Shown one piece after another: positions 16,461 through 25,461 of a stretch of DNA of 32,100 nucleotides; position 1 is the first letter of the stretch, and every line of letters starts with the position of its first letter. The notes beneath the pieces are model-generated. The model did no database searches, was not told the origin of the DNA, and was given only the letters and a program-made list of their open reading frames with translations. Position numbers and translations under genes: made by a program. The stretch is from Candidatus Woykebacteria bacterium RIFCSPLOWO2_01_FULL_43_14 (GTDB lineage: Bacteria; Patescibacteriota; Microgenomatia; Woykebacterales; 2-01-FULL-43-14), in contig MHDB01000013.1 in NCBI GenBank assembly GCA_001816835.1, forward strand, positions 25,334 to 57,433, in the 5' to 3' direction.

Positions 16461-16910
16461 ATGGCACAAGAAGTTAAAGAAAAAAAGACTACCGTCCTTA
16501 AGCGACCAAAGATAAGCAAACCACAATGGTATGAAGGTACTGGAAGGCGAAAGACTGCTATTGCTCGAGTGAGGGTCTTTTTAGGTAAAGAACCTATGAC
16601 TATAAATGGCGTTGCTGTTGATAGTTACTTCCCCGGAGCAAGTGCCAAAAGAGAATATGAGCGACCTTTAAGTCTGGTTAATAGACTTGATTCTCTTACC
16701 GCTACGGTTAAAGTGCTCGGGGGTGGTTCCCATTCACAACTTGGTGCTCTAGTGCACGGCCTTGCCAACGCTTTAATAAAATTTGACCCCACTTTCCGTT
16801 CCCAGCTAAGCGTGGCGGGATTACTAACTCGGGATTCTCGAATGAAAGAGAGTCGTAAGTTTGGTTTGGCCGGTAAGGCAAGAGCCAAAAAACAATCTCC
16901 AAAACGCTAG
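16461..16910 (+). CDS. rpsI: 30S ribosomal protein S9
   Basis: YEGTGRRKTAIARVRVFLG...GGGSHSQLGALVHGLANALIKF...LTRDSRMKESRKFGLAGKARAKKQSPKR. Confidence 0.98.
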   Translation: MAQEVKEKKTTVLKRPKISKPQWYEGTGRRKTAIARVRVFLGKEPMTINGVAVDSYFPGASAKREYERPLSLVNRLDSLTATVKVLGGGSHSQLGALVHGLANALIKFDPTFRSQLSVAGLLTRDSRMKESRKFGLAGKARAKKQSPKR

Positions 16911-17182
16911 TTTTTGTACAATTCGCTGTGGGTTCCAAGCATTTCAAAAATAATAACCGTTTTTGTCTCGGAGTAAATTGCACGCCAGTCACCAGTGATA
17001 TTGATACTTCTAAGATTGCTAAGACTGCCAGATAATTTATGGTTATTCAGTTGGGGTTGAAAAGGGTCTTGGTTGAAAACATCTCGTCTATCTAAAAAGG
17101 CTATTTTTATCTCAATTGGAGCTCTCTTGAGCTGCTTTTGAAATCTTCTTGAGTATTCAACTCTTTTTGTGTTTTCGATCAT
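16907..17182 (-). CDS. RelE/YafQ-family toxin (type II TA)
   Basis: VEYSRRFQKQLKRAPIEIKIAFLDRRDVFNQDPFQPQLNNHKLSGSLSNLRSINITGDWRAIYSE; overlaps antitoxin ORF. Confidence 0.85.
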   Translation of the reverse strand: MIENTKRVEYSRRFQKQLKRAPIEIKIAFLDRRDVFNQDPFQPQLNNHKLSGSLSNLRSINITGDWRAIYSETKTVIIFEMLGTHSELYKN

Positions 17183-17462
17183 GGTCTATAAGGTCATTGA
17201 GATATTTTTGCTCTTCTTGCCAAGTCTCAAAAGAGATCACTTGACCCGCTTTGATGTCTTCAGCGGATTCTTTGAGGGATTGAATAAGATATTCAGAGGG
17301 CTCCTCTTTACGAGTACTAAATGTGACAGTTTTGGTTCGGGTTAGCTCTTTTAGATAAGCATTAATAAGACTACTAAGACTAAAGCCAAGGTCACTTGCC
17401 ACTTTCTGGGCACGCTTTTTTAATTTTTGGTCAATCTTAACGTTCACAACAGCTGAATTCAT
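17157..17462 (-). CDS. RelB/DinJ-like antitoxin
   Basis: VVNVKIDQKLKKRAQKVASDLGFSLSSLINAYLKELTRTKTVTF ribbon-helix-helix pattern. Confidence 0.8.
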   Translation of the reverse strand: MNSAVVNVKIDQKLKKRAQKVASDLGFSLSSLINAYLKELTRTKTVTFSTRKEEPSEYLIQSLKESAEDIKAGQVISFETWQEEQKYLNDLIDHDRKHKKS

Positions 17463-18982: not shown

Positions 18983-19012
18983 TTTACTACAAGCTTGATC
19001 TTGTGGTATAAT
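18983..19012 (+). promoter_or_regulatory. Promoter of the three-gene cassette (extended -10)
   Basis: TGgTATAAT, -10 hexamer TATAAT 19007-19012, TG at 19004-19005; TTTACT 18983-18988 as weak -35. Confidence 0.7.
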
Positions 19013-19024
19013 GCCCGCGATTAA

Positions 19025-19100
19025 GAGGTGTGTGAAAAATTTCACATCCCTCATAATCATCCCGCCAGAATCTGGCGTTTCCGAGCTCTCAAGGTTCGGA
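19025..19100 (+). promoter_or_regulatory. Hairpin-rich 5' leader of the cassette
   Basis: Near-perfect stem 19025-19036/19041-19052; cgccag 19063-19068/ctggcg 19072-19077; tccga 19080-19084/tcgga 19096-19100. Confidence 0.6.
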
Positions 19101-19141
19101 GGCACCTGACAACTGAATACCAAAAGTCGAAAGAGGGAGAG

Positions 19142-20107
19142 ATGACAACTACCCCTAACTCTCAAGCCTATAATGGAAGAACTTATGAGCAAGCGCTACA
19201 AGAGAGAAATGATTGGTTGACTAAACTTGCTGAGGCCGTTAAAGCAAAAGTAATAGAACTTGGGTTTAAGAAGCTAGATAGAAGAGGAAGAGCGCCGTCC
19301 GATTTTGGTGCGGCTCTTAAGCCAAAACACGCCAGTACCTGGCTTTCCATTATCGGAGCACGTAGCGTTTTGGAGAATCAGTTAGAAATTTACGCCCGGC
19401 TTTATTTTCTCGGAATTCTAGATGCAAACCCCACCAAAATTCCTCCCCGTCCCAGCAGAAATCCGAAAGGCGGTTTTAGTCTTAGGCCAGTTGCGTGGGA
19501 CGAAGAGCGATTGAATAGGTACCTTGCTGAACATAAAGAGGAACTCGAAGAATTGAGGTCAGTAGTTGGGCAACCAACCCAGAGGGCCGCCGGTCGTACT
19601 GGTGGGACTAGACGTTCTCGCCAAAGACGGGTACATATCACTGCCACAGAACTTGTGAGTGATCAAGTGCATAGAGTATTAGCGGAGCCACCAACAGCTG
19701 CGGCGCCAACTATAACTCAACCAAGGGTTGGTTTGCTCGAGGAACTGGGGGCTTTAGTAACTAATTTGTCAGCCGAGTGGGGTCGGAATTTCGGACGAGA
19801 ACTGGGTGCCGCTTTTTCCGCGGAAGCTCTCAAGACTTTACAACATCTGCATGTACCAGTTGCGGCGATAGAACCAAATAGTTCACATCAAGAAGTAGCA
19901 TCAAGTGGCTCGGTACAAAGTATGTTAGATGGTTTAAACCGAGTATTGGAGACTTTGATGGGTGGTACTCCCGAAATGAGAGACCAGTTCATTAAACAGT
20001 ATGCTGAAGGGGTCAGACAAGCCTATTCTAAACTGGCCATTCTGACTCTGGACCCAGACCAAAGGGAAGACTCCCTGAAAGAAACAAGGAGATGGAAGCC
20101 CAAGTGA
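19142..20107 (+). CDS. Cassette gene A: 321-aa protein, XRE-like HTH N-terminus, basic linker, unknown C-terminus
   Basis: ATG 19142 after gagggagag; RAPSDFGAALKPKHASTWLSIIGARSVLENQLEIYARLYFLGILDANPTKIPPR resembles an HTH_3 pattern; RAAGRTGGTRRSRQRR linker. Confidence 0.7.
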   Translation: MTTTPNSQAYNGRTYEQALQERNDWLTKLAEAVKAKVIELGFKKLDRRGRAPSDFGAALKPKHASTWLSIIGARSVLENQLEIYARLYFLGILDANPTKIPPRPSRNPKGGFSLRPVAWDEERLNRYLAEHKEELEELRSVVGQPTQRAAGRTGGTRRSRQRRVHITATELVSDQVHRVLAEPPTAAAPTITQPRVGLLEELGALVTNLSAEWGRNFGRELGAAFSAEALKTLQHLHVPVAAIEPNSSHQEVASSGSVQSMLDGLNRVLETLMGGTPEMRDQFIKQYAEGVRQAYSKLAILTLDPDQREDSLKETRRWKPK

Positions 20108-22113
20108 TTAAACCACCTAGCTCACTAAGGCTTAGACTAGTCACGCAAACCACGATTCAATACTTAGCCGGCTTCAACGACAACCCGCAAGAGGCCTTAA
20201 AAGAAAGTGTGGCCAATGCTTTGGATGCCAATGCCAAAAAAATTTGGGTGGAGGTAAGTCGTATAAATGGAGAAATGCGCTTAGTTGTATGTGATGACGG
20301 TGACGGTATTCTTGATCGTATGTTTGAACATGACACCCTAAGACTGGATCAAGCTTACGCTGATCAGGTAAAGGGAGTGGCAGTAGATTTCGAAGAACTT
20401 AAAAGGGAACTCTCCCCAGTCTCCCGACACTCTTTTGAGTACATGGTAGGGGCTATTGGTTTATCGGCTAAGACCCCTGGTCAAGGGAAAATTGGGATGC
20501 GCGGCTTTGGTGGGACGACTGCGCCTTATAGTTATGCTCACGGGAAGGTGGTCTACAACACCCGACCTTCGTTAGAACTTGCTCGGAGTCGCTACCCAAA
20601 TCTTAAACGAGAGCCAGAAGTGGCTAATTATCGCCTAGACATGGGTGGTAGAGAGAGCATTGGGATCATTGATCCGGTTCTTAGTTTAGTGGACTCTCCA
20701 CCGACCGATCCGTATCGGAAGCCTTTGGTTCATGGAACGAGGTTAGAAATTTACGGCGTCGATCCCGACTTCGAGTTCTTTTTAAGGCCTGAGGCCCTTG
20801 CGGAGTACTTTAAGAGAAATTTGGGTCAGGCTCTTAGAATTAGAAACGCCGATTTGGTAATTGTTGATAAGCTTTCTGATAAGGGTTTGGCTACCGGTGG
20901 GATCGAGCATCGGGTAGAACCACCGGTGTACAAGGGGTACCAAATCTTTACTGGGACTCTGTTTGTAGAGGGAGGCGCTCCTTTTAATGCTGATCTGTTT
21001 CTTGATCCTTCAGAGAGAACTCCAGAAATAGAGCTTTATCGAAGAGGGGATCGCGCTGGTTCGCTCTTTCCTCGTAACGCCGCCCAGGATATCGCTTTCA
21101 AGGAGGATCCACTCCTAAGGAAACTCTTGGATAGCGTCTTTAAGAGGCTAAAGGGTGTTCTCCACTTTCCCCAAACAGGTGACTTTGAGGATGATTCTGA
21201 TTGTTGGGATACTTCCAAGAAACGTCTCCTTTTCAATTCACCAAAAAGTCGTAGATTTGTGGCGGCTCTGCTTAAGCGTGAAACGGAATTCGCTGAGATA
21301 GTTAGGAGGACTTTAGAGCAAATTGATGAGCGAAGAGAAGGAGAGCAAGCCAGGATACTTGGTGATGCCCTGACTGCTGCGATTCGGGAAACGGACTATT
21401 TCCGAAACAAACTTGGGGTAAAGGAGGAAGAACCTAAGCGAAAGATAAAGCCAGGAAAGGGACCTACCAGGGGACCTAGCAAAGGAACTTATAAGTTGGA
21501 GTACGTGATTGTTTCGGTCAGGAACCAGAATGGTGAGGGGGTGTCAGGTATCCCCGTTCAGATTTGGCAGAGTGGTCAGATGCTTGGCGAGCCTAGGATA
21601 ACTAAGAATAGCGGCTCAGTCTCCTTTGGCAAAAAACCAAAGGGAGCATACCGGGCAACTATTGCTTTACCACTCGAAATCACAGCACCTCTAACCTCAG
21701 CCAGCTTTGAGTTGCCAGAGGATAACGAAGGAGTCAGAGTGTCTTTTAGAGTAACGACACCGGTTCAAGTCGGTACCGGAGTGGTGAAGATTCCGGATAT
21801 CATCCCGATTATTCGACCTTTTAGTAACGCTGAGGATGATCCCGAATCGCCTTGGCACAGCCGGATGAATCTTGGGATGGTGGAAATAAACAATTCCCAC
21901 CCTGTTTATCGGGAAGCGGAGGCCAAGGGAGATTGGACGAGATTAGCTTATCAGGTCCACTGTTTGTCCTCAGCGGTCGCAAACCACGCCGGGGCCGGAG
22001 ATAGAGCTTTGACGGTGCAAATGTCGACGATACTTTTTGCCAGGCTTATGTTTAATGCTCAAGAAACTGAGCGGGCAGCTCGGGCCAAAAGTGCCGCTAA
22101 CCGTCGCAAATAG
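20092..22113 (+). CDS. Cassette gene B: GHKL-type ATPase (MutL/Hsp90/MORC-like) with internal beta-sandwich-like domain; alternative start GTG 20104
   Basis: N box EALKESVANALDANAKKIWVEV, G1 DDGDGI, G2 GQGKIGMRGFGG; later YVIVSVRNQNGEGVSGIPVQIWQSGQ...SGSVSFGKKPKGAYRATIALP. Confidence 0.85.
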   Translation: MEAQVIKPPSSLRLRLVTQTTIQYLAGFNDNPQEALKESVANALDANAKKIWVEVSRINGEMRLVVCDDGDGILDRMFEHDTLRLDQAYADQVKGVAVDFEELKRELSPVSRHSFEYMVGAIGLSAKTPGQGKIGMRGFGGTTAPYSYAHGKVVYNTRPSLELARSRYPNLKREPEVANYRLDMGGRESIGIIDPVLSLVDSPPTDPYRKPLVHGTRLEIYGVDPDFEFFLRPEALAEYFKRNLGQALRIRNADLVIVDKLSDKGLATGGIEHRVEPPVYKGYQIFTGTLFVEGGAPFNADLFLDPSERTPEIELYRRGDRAGSLFPRNAAQDIAFKEDPLLRKLLDSVFKRLKGVLHFPQTGDFEDDSDCWDTSKKRLLFNSPKSRRFVAALLKRETEFAEIVRRTLEQIDERREGEQARILGDALTAAIRETDYFRNKLGVKEEEPKRKIKPGKGPTRGPSKGTYKLEYVIVSVRNQNGEGVSGIPVQIWQSGQMLGEPRITKNSGSVSFGKKPKGAYRATIALPLEITAPLTSASFELPEDNEGVRVSFRVTTPVQVGTGVVKIPDIIPIIRPFSNAEDDPESPWHSRMNLGMVEINNSHPVYREAEAKGDWTRLAYQVHCLSSAVANHAGAGDRALTVQMSTILFARLMFNAQETERAARAKSAANRRK

Positions 22114-22167
22114 CTTAATTACTCTTTTCTTTTTGGGGGTCCGGGATTGCGTGAGAAGGGAGGAAAG

Positions 22168-22932
22168 ATGGACCAGCAGCAAAACCAAACCCGACAACGT
22201 CTGCACACGAGCAGACTGCGTCTAGCAAGACTAATCAGACGGATTACTTTAAGAAGAGCCAAAGAGCTCATAGCTTTAAATTTTGCCAGAAGATACGAGA
22301 AGATTTTGGCCCAAGCCATGAAAGACTTGGACACGGCTGGCACTTTGAATATACCTGATGTTGAGCGCTTGATGAGGGAAGTAGTAGAGACTTTGACAGG
22401 AGTTTTTAGCGCCGAAGGAGAAGGTATGGAGATACTTATTCCTTCGGACGCAAGTGCGCTCGGAGATAATCTGGGTGTGGTACCTACCCCGAGGCAGAAG
22501 AAACCCCCACGGAAAGGGAAAAAACTAGTACTTAAAACTACTGACCACGGAGCCAATATAGTAGCGTTTAACTTTGGAGAAAAACCTCCGGCCGAGACTT
22601 TTGAAAGTGCTCTGCGTCGGACCTTTGGAGAAGGCTGGGAATCAAAAACAATTGCTGTAATGGGTCATGGCCCAGGTAGAATTGAACAAAGAACTTTTGC
22701 TCAGGATGTAGCTCTTGGGTCTGGGAGTGTCTTAAGAAGGTACGTTAGTACCACTATAAGCAATCTTTTGATTATGAAAAAAGGATTACCTCCAGGGGCA
22801 ATCGTTGGTTCTCAGCTCCAGCGTTTATTTGCCCAGCTTAACGAAACTCTACGTTGGGATGATATCCCCCCAACCATAAATAAATGGGGCATTAAGCTTG
22901 AAGATCAAGGAGAAGAGGCCGCACAGAGCTAG
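22168..22932 (+). CDS. Cassette gene C: 254-aa protein of unknown function
   Basis: ATG 22168 after gggagg; long ORF in the same operon; no family recognised. Confidence 0.75.
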   Translation: MDQQQNQTRQRLHTSRLRLARLIRRITLRRAKELIALNFARRYEKILAQAMKDLDTAGTLNIPDVERLMREVVETLTGVFSAEGEGMEILIPSDASALGDNLGVVPTPRQKKPPRKGKKLVLKTTDHGANIVAFNFGEKPPAETFESALRRTFGEGWESKTIAVMGHGPGRIEQRTFAQDVALGSGSVLRRYVSTTISNLLIMKKGLPPGAIVGSQLQRLFAQLNETLRWDDIPPTINKWGIKLEDQGEEAAQS

Positions 22933-22958
22933 TGAATTTTCACTAGCTCTTCTTTTTT
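22925..22958 (+). terminator. Intrinsic terminator of the cassette
   Basis: agagctagtga 22925-22935 / tcactagctct 22940-22950 (11-bp stem), then tctttttt. Confidence 0.9.
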
Positions 22959-24411: not shown

Positions 24412-24415
24412 AGAG

Positions 24416-24444
24416 TGGACAAGGTACGCTCAAAATCGTATAGT
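24416..24444 (+). promoter_or_regulatory. Promoter, probably leaderless transcript for CDS at 24454
   Basis: TGGACA 24416-24421, 17 nt, TATAGT 24439-24444, ATG 9 nt after. Confidence 0.65.
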
Positions 24445-24453
24445 ATACACAGT

Positions 24454-25461
24454 ATGAAGTTAGAAAAGGTACTTATTATCCTGACCCTTTCGGTGGTTAT
24501 TATTTTACTTTCAGCTGTGAGGATCGGTGAGTATTTTGGAAGCATCTCCAGCGTCCCAACCCCCAAGAACCCAGATTCCTCAGTCCCAGCTTCTCAAGAA
24601 GAGATAAAACCTCTGGAGCAAGAGCTCCAGCTGACATTTGACACTAAAACTGCGAGTAAAGATCCTTTTAACGATTCAAACGGCCCTTTTTATCATGATG
24701 TTAACCTGGCGACCTCCATTGACGGTGTAAATTTTGCTTTTGATTCATTGGTACTGGAAAAAGCTTCCGTGCCGGATGTGGTCAGATTAGCTGACTCCAC
24801 CTTGGCCATTTATGCAGTGGATGGGTCTGGGAGATCTAAATCGGGGTTGATGGTTGCTATCTCCAAAGATGAAGGTCAGACTTGGCAACAAGGGTCAGTC
24901 CAGTTTGATTCCTTAGTTCCAGGGGCAGCTGACCCAGATGTGGTCGTGCTGCCTGATGGTAAAATAAGACTTTATTTTGTAGTTTTTGAGGATGTAGAGA
25001 ATAAGACAGTAGTACCAACCAATATGGTAAAAAGTGCTACCTCTTCAGATGGGGTAAACTTCAGTTTGGAATCCGGTGAGAGGCTTAAATATAGCAACCT
25101 TACGGATCCAGACGTTGTAAAGATAGGAAACTCATGGTTCATGTACTTCTCGCAAGGGGCCAAACTGTTGGCTGCTATCTCAAGTAATGGCTTAAGTTTT
25201 AAGTATCAGAAAGATATTCGCTCACTTGGTAGTGTTTCTAGCACAGTTAAAATAACTGAGGAGACTTACCGCCAATTTTACTGCAACAATGGTATAAAAA
25301 GCGCAACTTCCATTGATGGGCTTAGTTGGAAAGACGATGCAGGCTATAGACTTAAGCCAGGAACTAAAGAATTTGTTTGTGACCCCGCCCCTCTCAAAAC
25401 AGAGGGTGACAATTGGCTTATGTACTACAAAGTAGCCAAAGTTAGTGAGTCTAAACAATGA
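24454..25461 (+). CDS. Membrane-anchored/secreted five-bladed beta-propeller (glycosidase- or sialidase-like) protein
   Basis: N-terminal TM VLIILTLSVVIILLSAVRIG; repeated SxDGxxF / DPDVV.LPDGKIRLYFV / SSDGVNF / DPDVVKIGNSWFMYFS blades. Confidence 0.7.
   Translation: MKLEKVLIILTLSVVIILLSAVRIGEYFGSISSVPTPKNPDSSVPASQEEIKPLEQELQLTFDTKTASKDPFNDSNGPFYHDVNLATSIDGVNFAFDSLVLEKASVPDVVRLADSTLAIYAVDGSGRSKSGLMVAISKDEGQTWQQGSVQFDSLVPGAADPDVVVLPDGKIRLYFVVFEDVENKTVVPTNMVKSATSSDGVNFSLESGERLKYSNLTDPDVVKIGNSWFMYFSQGAKLLAAISSNGLSFKYQKDIRSLGSVSSTVKITEETYRQFYCNNGIKSATSIDGLSWKDDAGYRLKPGTKEFVCDPAPLKTEGDNWLMYYKVAKVSESKQ

Follow-up and report, generated by a model that had tools for sequence, protein, structure and literature searches.

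The 32,100-nucleotide (nt) stretch of DNA analysed here, referred to as the window, lies on contig MHDB01000013.1 (positions 25,334 to 57,433) of Candidatus Woykebacteria bacterium RIFCSPLOWO2_01_FULL_43_14, a Patescibacteria-type genome of the same class as Ca. Woesebacteria whose assembly comprises 806,729 bases in 44 contigs and is 94% complete. A first-pass annotation made from the sequence had described three co-directional genes, here called A, B and C, between purD and a phosphomannomutase gene, and had interpreted them as a self-contained cassette of a helix-turn-helix (HTH) protein, a GHKL ATPase and an orphan protein. The three open reading frames (ORFs) exist as described, all on the plus strand, and are flanked by purD (minus strand) and the phosphoglucomutase/phosphomannomutase gene pmm (plus strand, identified by Pfam); the promoter, structured leader, overlapping A and B frames and strong terminator reported with them are likewise present. 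The features of the locus, in window coordinates, are the following.

18983..19012, plus strand: sigma-70 promoter with an extended -10 element (TG-TATAAT); TTTACT-18 nt-TATAAT, 10/12 consensus matches, TG present.
19016..19141, plus strand: structured 5' leader with three hairpins, predicted by folding.
19019..19058, no strand assigned: 40-nt near-perfect palindrome that begins at the predicted start of transcription; either a candidate operator or the leader's first hairpin.
19142..20107, plus strand: gene A, 321 amino acids; putative HTH-like N-terminal domain, variable linker and conserved C-terminal helical segment.
20092..22113, plus strand: gene B, 673 amino acids (669 if the start is GTG 20104); in order, GHKL ATPase, putative S5-like transducer, coiled coil, CnaB-like immunoglobulin (Ig) domain and C-terminal alpha/beta domain.
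22168..22932, plus strand: gene C, 254 amino acids, optional; long helical N-terminal region and small C-terminal alpha/beta domain.
22925..22956, plus strand: intrinsic terminator; 11-bp stem, 4-nt loop, T run (stem and T run at 22925-22950; z = -5.8).

The distribution of these genes was evaluated in approximately 735 genomes, drawn in several rounds from the class, the phylum, and the family and order of one carrier, G175. Four genomes carry the module, all of them Patescibacteria: the window genome, G175 (Ca. Woesebacteria RIFCSPLOWO2_01_FULL_39_61), G311 and G731. Gene A is located immediately 5' of B in all four, which represent three families, and the identity of B to its relatives is ~22-30% (28-30% for G175). 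Leave-one-out hidden Markov models (HMMs), run against all six-frame ORFs of each locus, returned the correct ORF as the sole significant one for both proteins (A, E = 5e-15 to 4e-5; B, 2e-23 to 1e-50); the corresponding model for C was significant only between the window and G175 (3e-5 to 1e-4). The order A-B-C is kept in G175, and in G311 and G731 A and B overlap with no adjoining C, the C profile giving no match anywhere in these two assemblies. Because C adjoins B at two of the four loci and is missing from the other two assemblies, we take A-B to be the core and C an optional accessory; the earlier picture of an ATPase with two dedicated partners thus stands for A and is too strong for C, as is the term 'three-gene'. 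In G731, a 210-amino-acid orphan gene without a family match (L012:4033-4665, minus strand) lies divergent from A-B and is a candidate for an alternative accessory role.

The neighbouring genes of A-B differ at every one of the four loci, and within the family of G175 only two of 50 genomes carry the module. No homologues of B were found in phages or plasmids at the protein level, a search of viral contigs with A, B and C gave no relatives, and searches of GTDB contigs yielded nothing beyond the record of G175 itself, one MutL and one unrelated GHKL protein. Further threshold-level matches to B were short and lay over the GHKL residues near 13-80. Since the gene order recurs in three more genomes, all distantly related (as A-B-C in one of them), A-B looks like a real DNA-handling module that lacks a name rather than a pair of chance neighbours. 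A dedicated A-B complex is likely.

The GHKL fold of B had been correctly recognised, and its membership of this ATPase family is assigned from the match to Pfam HATPase_c_3 (PF13589; E = 2.9e-7, above the gathering score). The predicted structure of B is weak (AlphaFold mean predicted local distance difference test score, pLDDT, of 50), and its structural matches are for this reason used as hints. With this low-confidence model, Foldseek ranked Hsp90 first (1e-8), with GyrB43 (6.9e-8), MORC3 (3.9e-7) and SMCHD1 (1.4e-6) also matched; about 390-510 columns were aligned to the ATPase modules of Hsp90, GyrB 43K, MORC3, MORC4 and SMCHD1 (1e-8 to 2e-5). A profile search with B likewise placed TRAP1/Hsp90 first. 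The same model matched a CnaB2 domain (4e-5; 94 columns; TM-score 0.79 on the target), in agreement with the beta sandwich predicted at ~470-555, and the B protein of G175 matched Pfam SpaA (5e-5, above the cut-off) at the same place as the CnaB-type Ig domain.

Alignment of the four B homologues revealed the following invariant residues: N42 (the Mg-binding Asn of motif I), D68, G70 and G72 (motif II DxGxG) and K376 in the putative transducer region. In human MORC2, the general base is Glu35, at N-4 relative to Asn39 (PMC5811534). The equivalent residue of the window protein is E38, and it is replaced in G175 (Q35), G731 (A) and G311 (Q), with the Asn kept in all. Because the catalytic Glu is replaced and the Asn retained, these three proteins may still bind ATP while being poor at hydrolysing it. 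The earlier description of B mentioned neither the Ig domain nor the coiled coil, nor that relatives have lost the catalytic Glu.

The signatures that distinguish named MORC-type families were then sought in B. The MORC motif GhXhhpXXRhl is not recognisable in its S5 region, where residues 311-325 (EIELYRRGDRAG) are off register and the Arg is unconserved in the four homologues. For the paraMORC3/Shedu type I-D restriction-endonuclease-fold nuclease (DUF4263) there was no Pfam match, and no ExK is common to the four B C-termini; the TIR domain of paraMORC4 had no match in A, B or C; the HxH of paraMORC5 occurs in none of the four B proteins; and, for the ExxxH of paraMORC2, neither E nor H was among the invariant columns of the S5 region in the four-homologue alignment, which is shallow. 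On these sequence criteria B is not assigned to the MORC or paraMORC3-5 families; at most it would work like a MORC.

The two partner proteins are less readily classified. The window A protein has no Pfam match, and among its homologues that of G731 alone matched HTH models (HTH_11, E = 0.0019; TIGR03879, 0.008), both below the cut-off; support for the earlier designation of A as an HTH protein is weak. C is an orphan, as had been stated, with no match in Pfam, NCBIfam, PHROGs, PADLOC or PDB. Its small C-terminal alpha/beta domain is the part conserved in G175 and, in a weak structure model, could be winged-helix-like; the fold search with the C model gave no significant match.

The architecture of the operon suggests coordinated expression of A and B at the level of translation. 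The annotated ATG of B (20092) directly abuts AAGGAG with a spacer of 0, which makes the downstream GTG 20104 the likelier start; this GTG forms a GTGA overlap with the stop codon of A. This overlap, together with the ATGA overlap of the homologous pair in G731, makes translational coupling of A and B likely.

Upstream, the promoter is correctly placed, and the number of promoter-like sites in the region is not above chance (6 observed versus 4.1 expected). The leader folds strongly (19016-19145; -47.6 kcal/mol; z = -5.6 relative to 200 dinucleotide shuffles). It reached the gathering level of no Rfam family, has no full-length copy other than itself in 374 genomes of the class, and the leaders of relatives fold unremarkably. 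Within it, the stretch 19080-19127 (GGTTCGGAGGCACCTGACAACTGAATAC) resembles the 3' part of the alpha-proteobacterial transfer-messenger RNA (tmRNA) model, well under the Rfam threshold; identification of the leader as alpha-tmRNA was rejected for lack of support (19 bits against a gathering score of 50, and 6.8 bits when a shorter stretch was used), and ARAGORN detected neither tRNAs nor tmRNAs in the window or at the five loci examined. The palindrome is self-complementary at 32 of its 40 positions, a value equalled by none of 200 shuffles. As it is not present 5' of A in the three relatives, an autoregulatory operator is suggested for the window copy only. The pattern GTGAAN2-4TTCAC, picked after its sites had been seen, occurs at just two places in the 32-kb window (0.13 expected), within the leader palindrome (19032-19045) and at the terminator (22932-22943), that is, once at each end of the cassette, and is not found in the loci of the relatives.

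The purD-pmm neighbourhood is not shared by the nearest relatives in an empty-site comparison, which thus yielded no empty site for the cassette, and no flanking repeats were found, the sole direct repeat of at least 14 nt falling inside the cassette. Between rpsI and purD, a RelB-like antitoxin and a YafQ-like toxin form a pair on the minus strand (16907-17462; Pfam RelB, 1.9e-8; YafQ_toxin, 2.9e-11), and a predicted exported BNR/sialidase-like repeat protein adjoins the phosphomannomutase gene on the plus strand (24415-25461; BNR_2, E = 0.0044, below the cut-off).

The absence of a recognised defence system noted by the first-pass annotation holds. PADLOC 2.0.0 assigned no family to A, B or C, and those proteins of the relatives that were tested gave chance-level scores only (Csm4, 0.04; JetC/LmuB coiled coil, ~0.03). 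No nuclease, helicase, methylase, TIR or toxin family was found in A, B or C with Pfam, NCBIfam, PADLOC or PHROGs, and no superfamily II (SFII) helicase, nuclease or methylase neighbours the module in the window (RelB/YafQ, purD, pmm and others) or in the ORF lists of the relatives. As to the proposed check for conserved neighbourhood near defence islands, A-B is kept across the Patescibacteria relatives, and no defence-island context was found in the partly scanned flanks of the four loci.

Taken together, we tentatively favour, at somewhat below even confidence, a rare and patchy Patescibacteria module in which the putative HTH protein A guides the MORC/paraMORC-like GHKL-S5 ATPase B, with C as an option, and B forms a dimeric clamp on DNA that is operated by ATP. 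In this mechanism, A would recognise a DNA site or structure and recruit B; ATP binding would dimerise the N-terminal GHKL domains of B and close the clamp around DNA or a DNA-bound target; and B would hold A, C or the second protomer through its coiled coil, Ig domain and C-terminal domain. The bound DNA, most plausibly incoming mobile DNA, would be occluded, compacted or silenced rather than cut. Because the HTH-like partner is always upstream of B, targeting by A and clamping by B is the simplest reading. MORC2 provides the precedent: it dimerises upon ATP binding, with hydrolysis releasing the dimer (PMC5811534), and is a DNA clamp and compactor (PMC12216690). Since the catalytic Glu is missing from three of the four B proteins, the switch is likely to be ATP binding and not rapid turnover, and in some members hydrolysis would be slow or unnecessary. 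In the window copy, A may in addition be an autorepressor acting at the palindrome where transcription is predicted to begin. Action on foreign DNA appears more likely than a housekeeping role.

Several observations weigh against this model of a steered clamp. The structure model of B is poor, the MORC-specific S5 motif cannot be recognised in this protein, the HTH nature of A is weakly supported, and the clamp action is carried over from eukaryotic MORCs. No defence genes were found around the four loci, the flanks of which were partly scanned. In favour of the model, the GC content of the cassette exceeds that of the remainder of the window (47.6% versus 42.1%), and lateral transfer is plausible; against it, the GC content at third codon positions (GC3) of A, B and C (0.38-0.45) resembles that of the neighbouring genes (0.40-0.43), which leaves recent transfer unsupported. 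Finally, only four members are known, so that both the patchiness and the view of C as dispensable depend on a small sample of draft assemblies.

A lineage-specific cell-biology or Hsp90-like chaperone machine with no tie to DNA conflict would account for Hsp90 and TRAP1/Hsp90 topping the fold and profile searches, as well as for a CnaB/Ig domain that is unusual in DNA enzymes. We regard it as unlikely, as A looks HTH-like and a housekeeping machine would not be expected to occur so patchily, in two of 50 genomes even within the family of G175. Rather unlikely, too, is a defence system of the restriction or abortive type in which B controls a nuclease or toxin concealed in C or in the C-terminal domain of B: GHKL-S5 ATPases are frequent in restriction-modification (R-M) operons (PMC2292703), coupling of a GHKL domain to a nuclease is proven for VcSduA/paraMORC3 (PMC12137116), and the optional C could serve as an exchangeable effector, but the family searches described above returned no nuclease, TIR or toxin, the four B C-termini share no ExK, and two of the four loci lack C and show no obvious substitute for it. 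Quite unlikely is a regulatory pair resembling CapK-CapS, with B as a GHKL kinase or switch controlling A and the operon regulating other genes. HTH and GHKL gene pairs that control immune operons are known (PMC13373217) and the palindrome is located at the promoter of the operon; however, B is large, with an N-terminal GHKL and S5-like region whose fold matches GyrB, Hsp90 and MORC rather than short histidine kinases or SpoIIAB-like kinases, neither a STAS nor a receiver domain was detected in A, and the palindrome is missing in relatives. That B stands in for MutL in mismatch repair is very improbable because G731 has a genuine MutL as well as B; the only MutL-model match in the window genome is a weak match to B itself (TIGR00585, 2.5e-6; 26.7 bits against a cut-off of 180), but it is limited to ~45 N-box residues (31-74), neither the C-terminal domain of MutL nor an endonuclease domain can be detected in B, and A and C are not Mut proteins.

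The observation of the first-pass annotation is confirmed and its interpretation, taken as a whole, is partly supported. A bolder extension is a nuclease-free anti-mobile-DNA or chromatin-like silencing system in Patescibacteria, undescribed before, in which a MORC/SMCHD1-like GHKL-Ig ATPase is targeted by an HTH protein and acts mainly by ATP-binding-driven clamp closure; this we consider unlikely, yet if true it would be a bacterial counterpart of MORC-type transposon silencing. Reduced genomes such as these seldom carry CRISPR-Cas (PMC6509639). Bacterial MORCs and paraMORCs are mostly known beside restriction enzymes, where defence is explained by cutting, and a GHKL-S5 ATPase linked solely to DNA-binding-type partners would allow MORC-like silencing or clamping of foreign DNA to be tested in bacteria. 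If the function differs, A-B remains a conserved, unnamed gene pair of a poorly understood phylum.

We read the operon as a previously unreported form of the MORC/paraMORC kind of GHKL-S5 operon. Prokaryotic MORCs and paraMORCs are located in R-M operons, where GHKL-S5 ATPases are common (Iyer, Abhiman and Aravind 2008, PMC2292703). With prokaryotic MORC and paraMORC1-5 the module shares motifs I and II of an N-terminal GHKL domain, a patchy distribution and an operon with partner genes, and the GHKL domain of B leads into a putative S5-like transducer with a conserved lysine; in contrast, no SFII helicase, nuclease or methylase adjoins it, B has no recognisable GhXhhpXXRhl, paraMORC3 nuclease, TIR or HxH and instead carries a coiled coil and a CnaB/Ig domain, and B is accompanied by a putative HTH-like protein and, optionally, an orphan. 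VcSduA (type I-D Shedu, paraMORC3; PMC12137116) resembles B in its N-terminal GHKL ATPase and prokaryotic accessory locus, but consists of one gene only and ends in a DUF4263 nuclease, a domain that was not detected in B. In CapK-CapS (PMC13373217) an HTH-type and a GHKL protein are encoded together, as is probably the case here; CapK is an HTH-STAS-GHKL kinase and CapS a STAS-winged HTH protein, whereas the present module has no STAS domain and B has an N-terminal GHKL domain with a putative transducer. MutL shares the N-box over ~45 residues, but B falls far under the cut-off with no MutL C-terminal domain found, and a genome bearing B can also hold MutL. Relative to MORC2, MORC3 and SMCHD1, no CW zinc finger or SMC hinge was detected in B and the similarity is remote; the Foldseek alignment nevertheless extends over the MORC3 and SMCHD1 ATPase modules, and dimerisation driven by ATP binding, as in MORC2, is the property we propose that they share.

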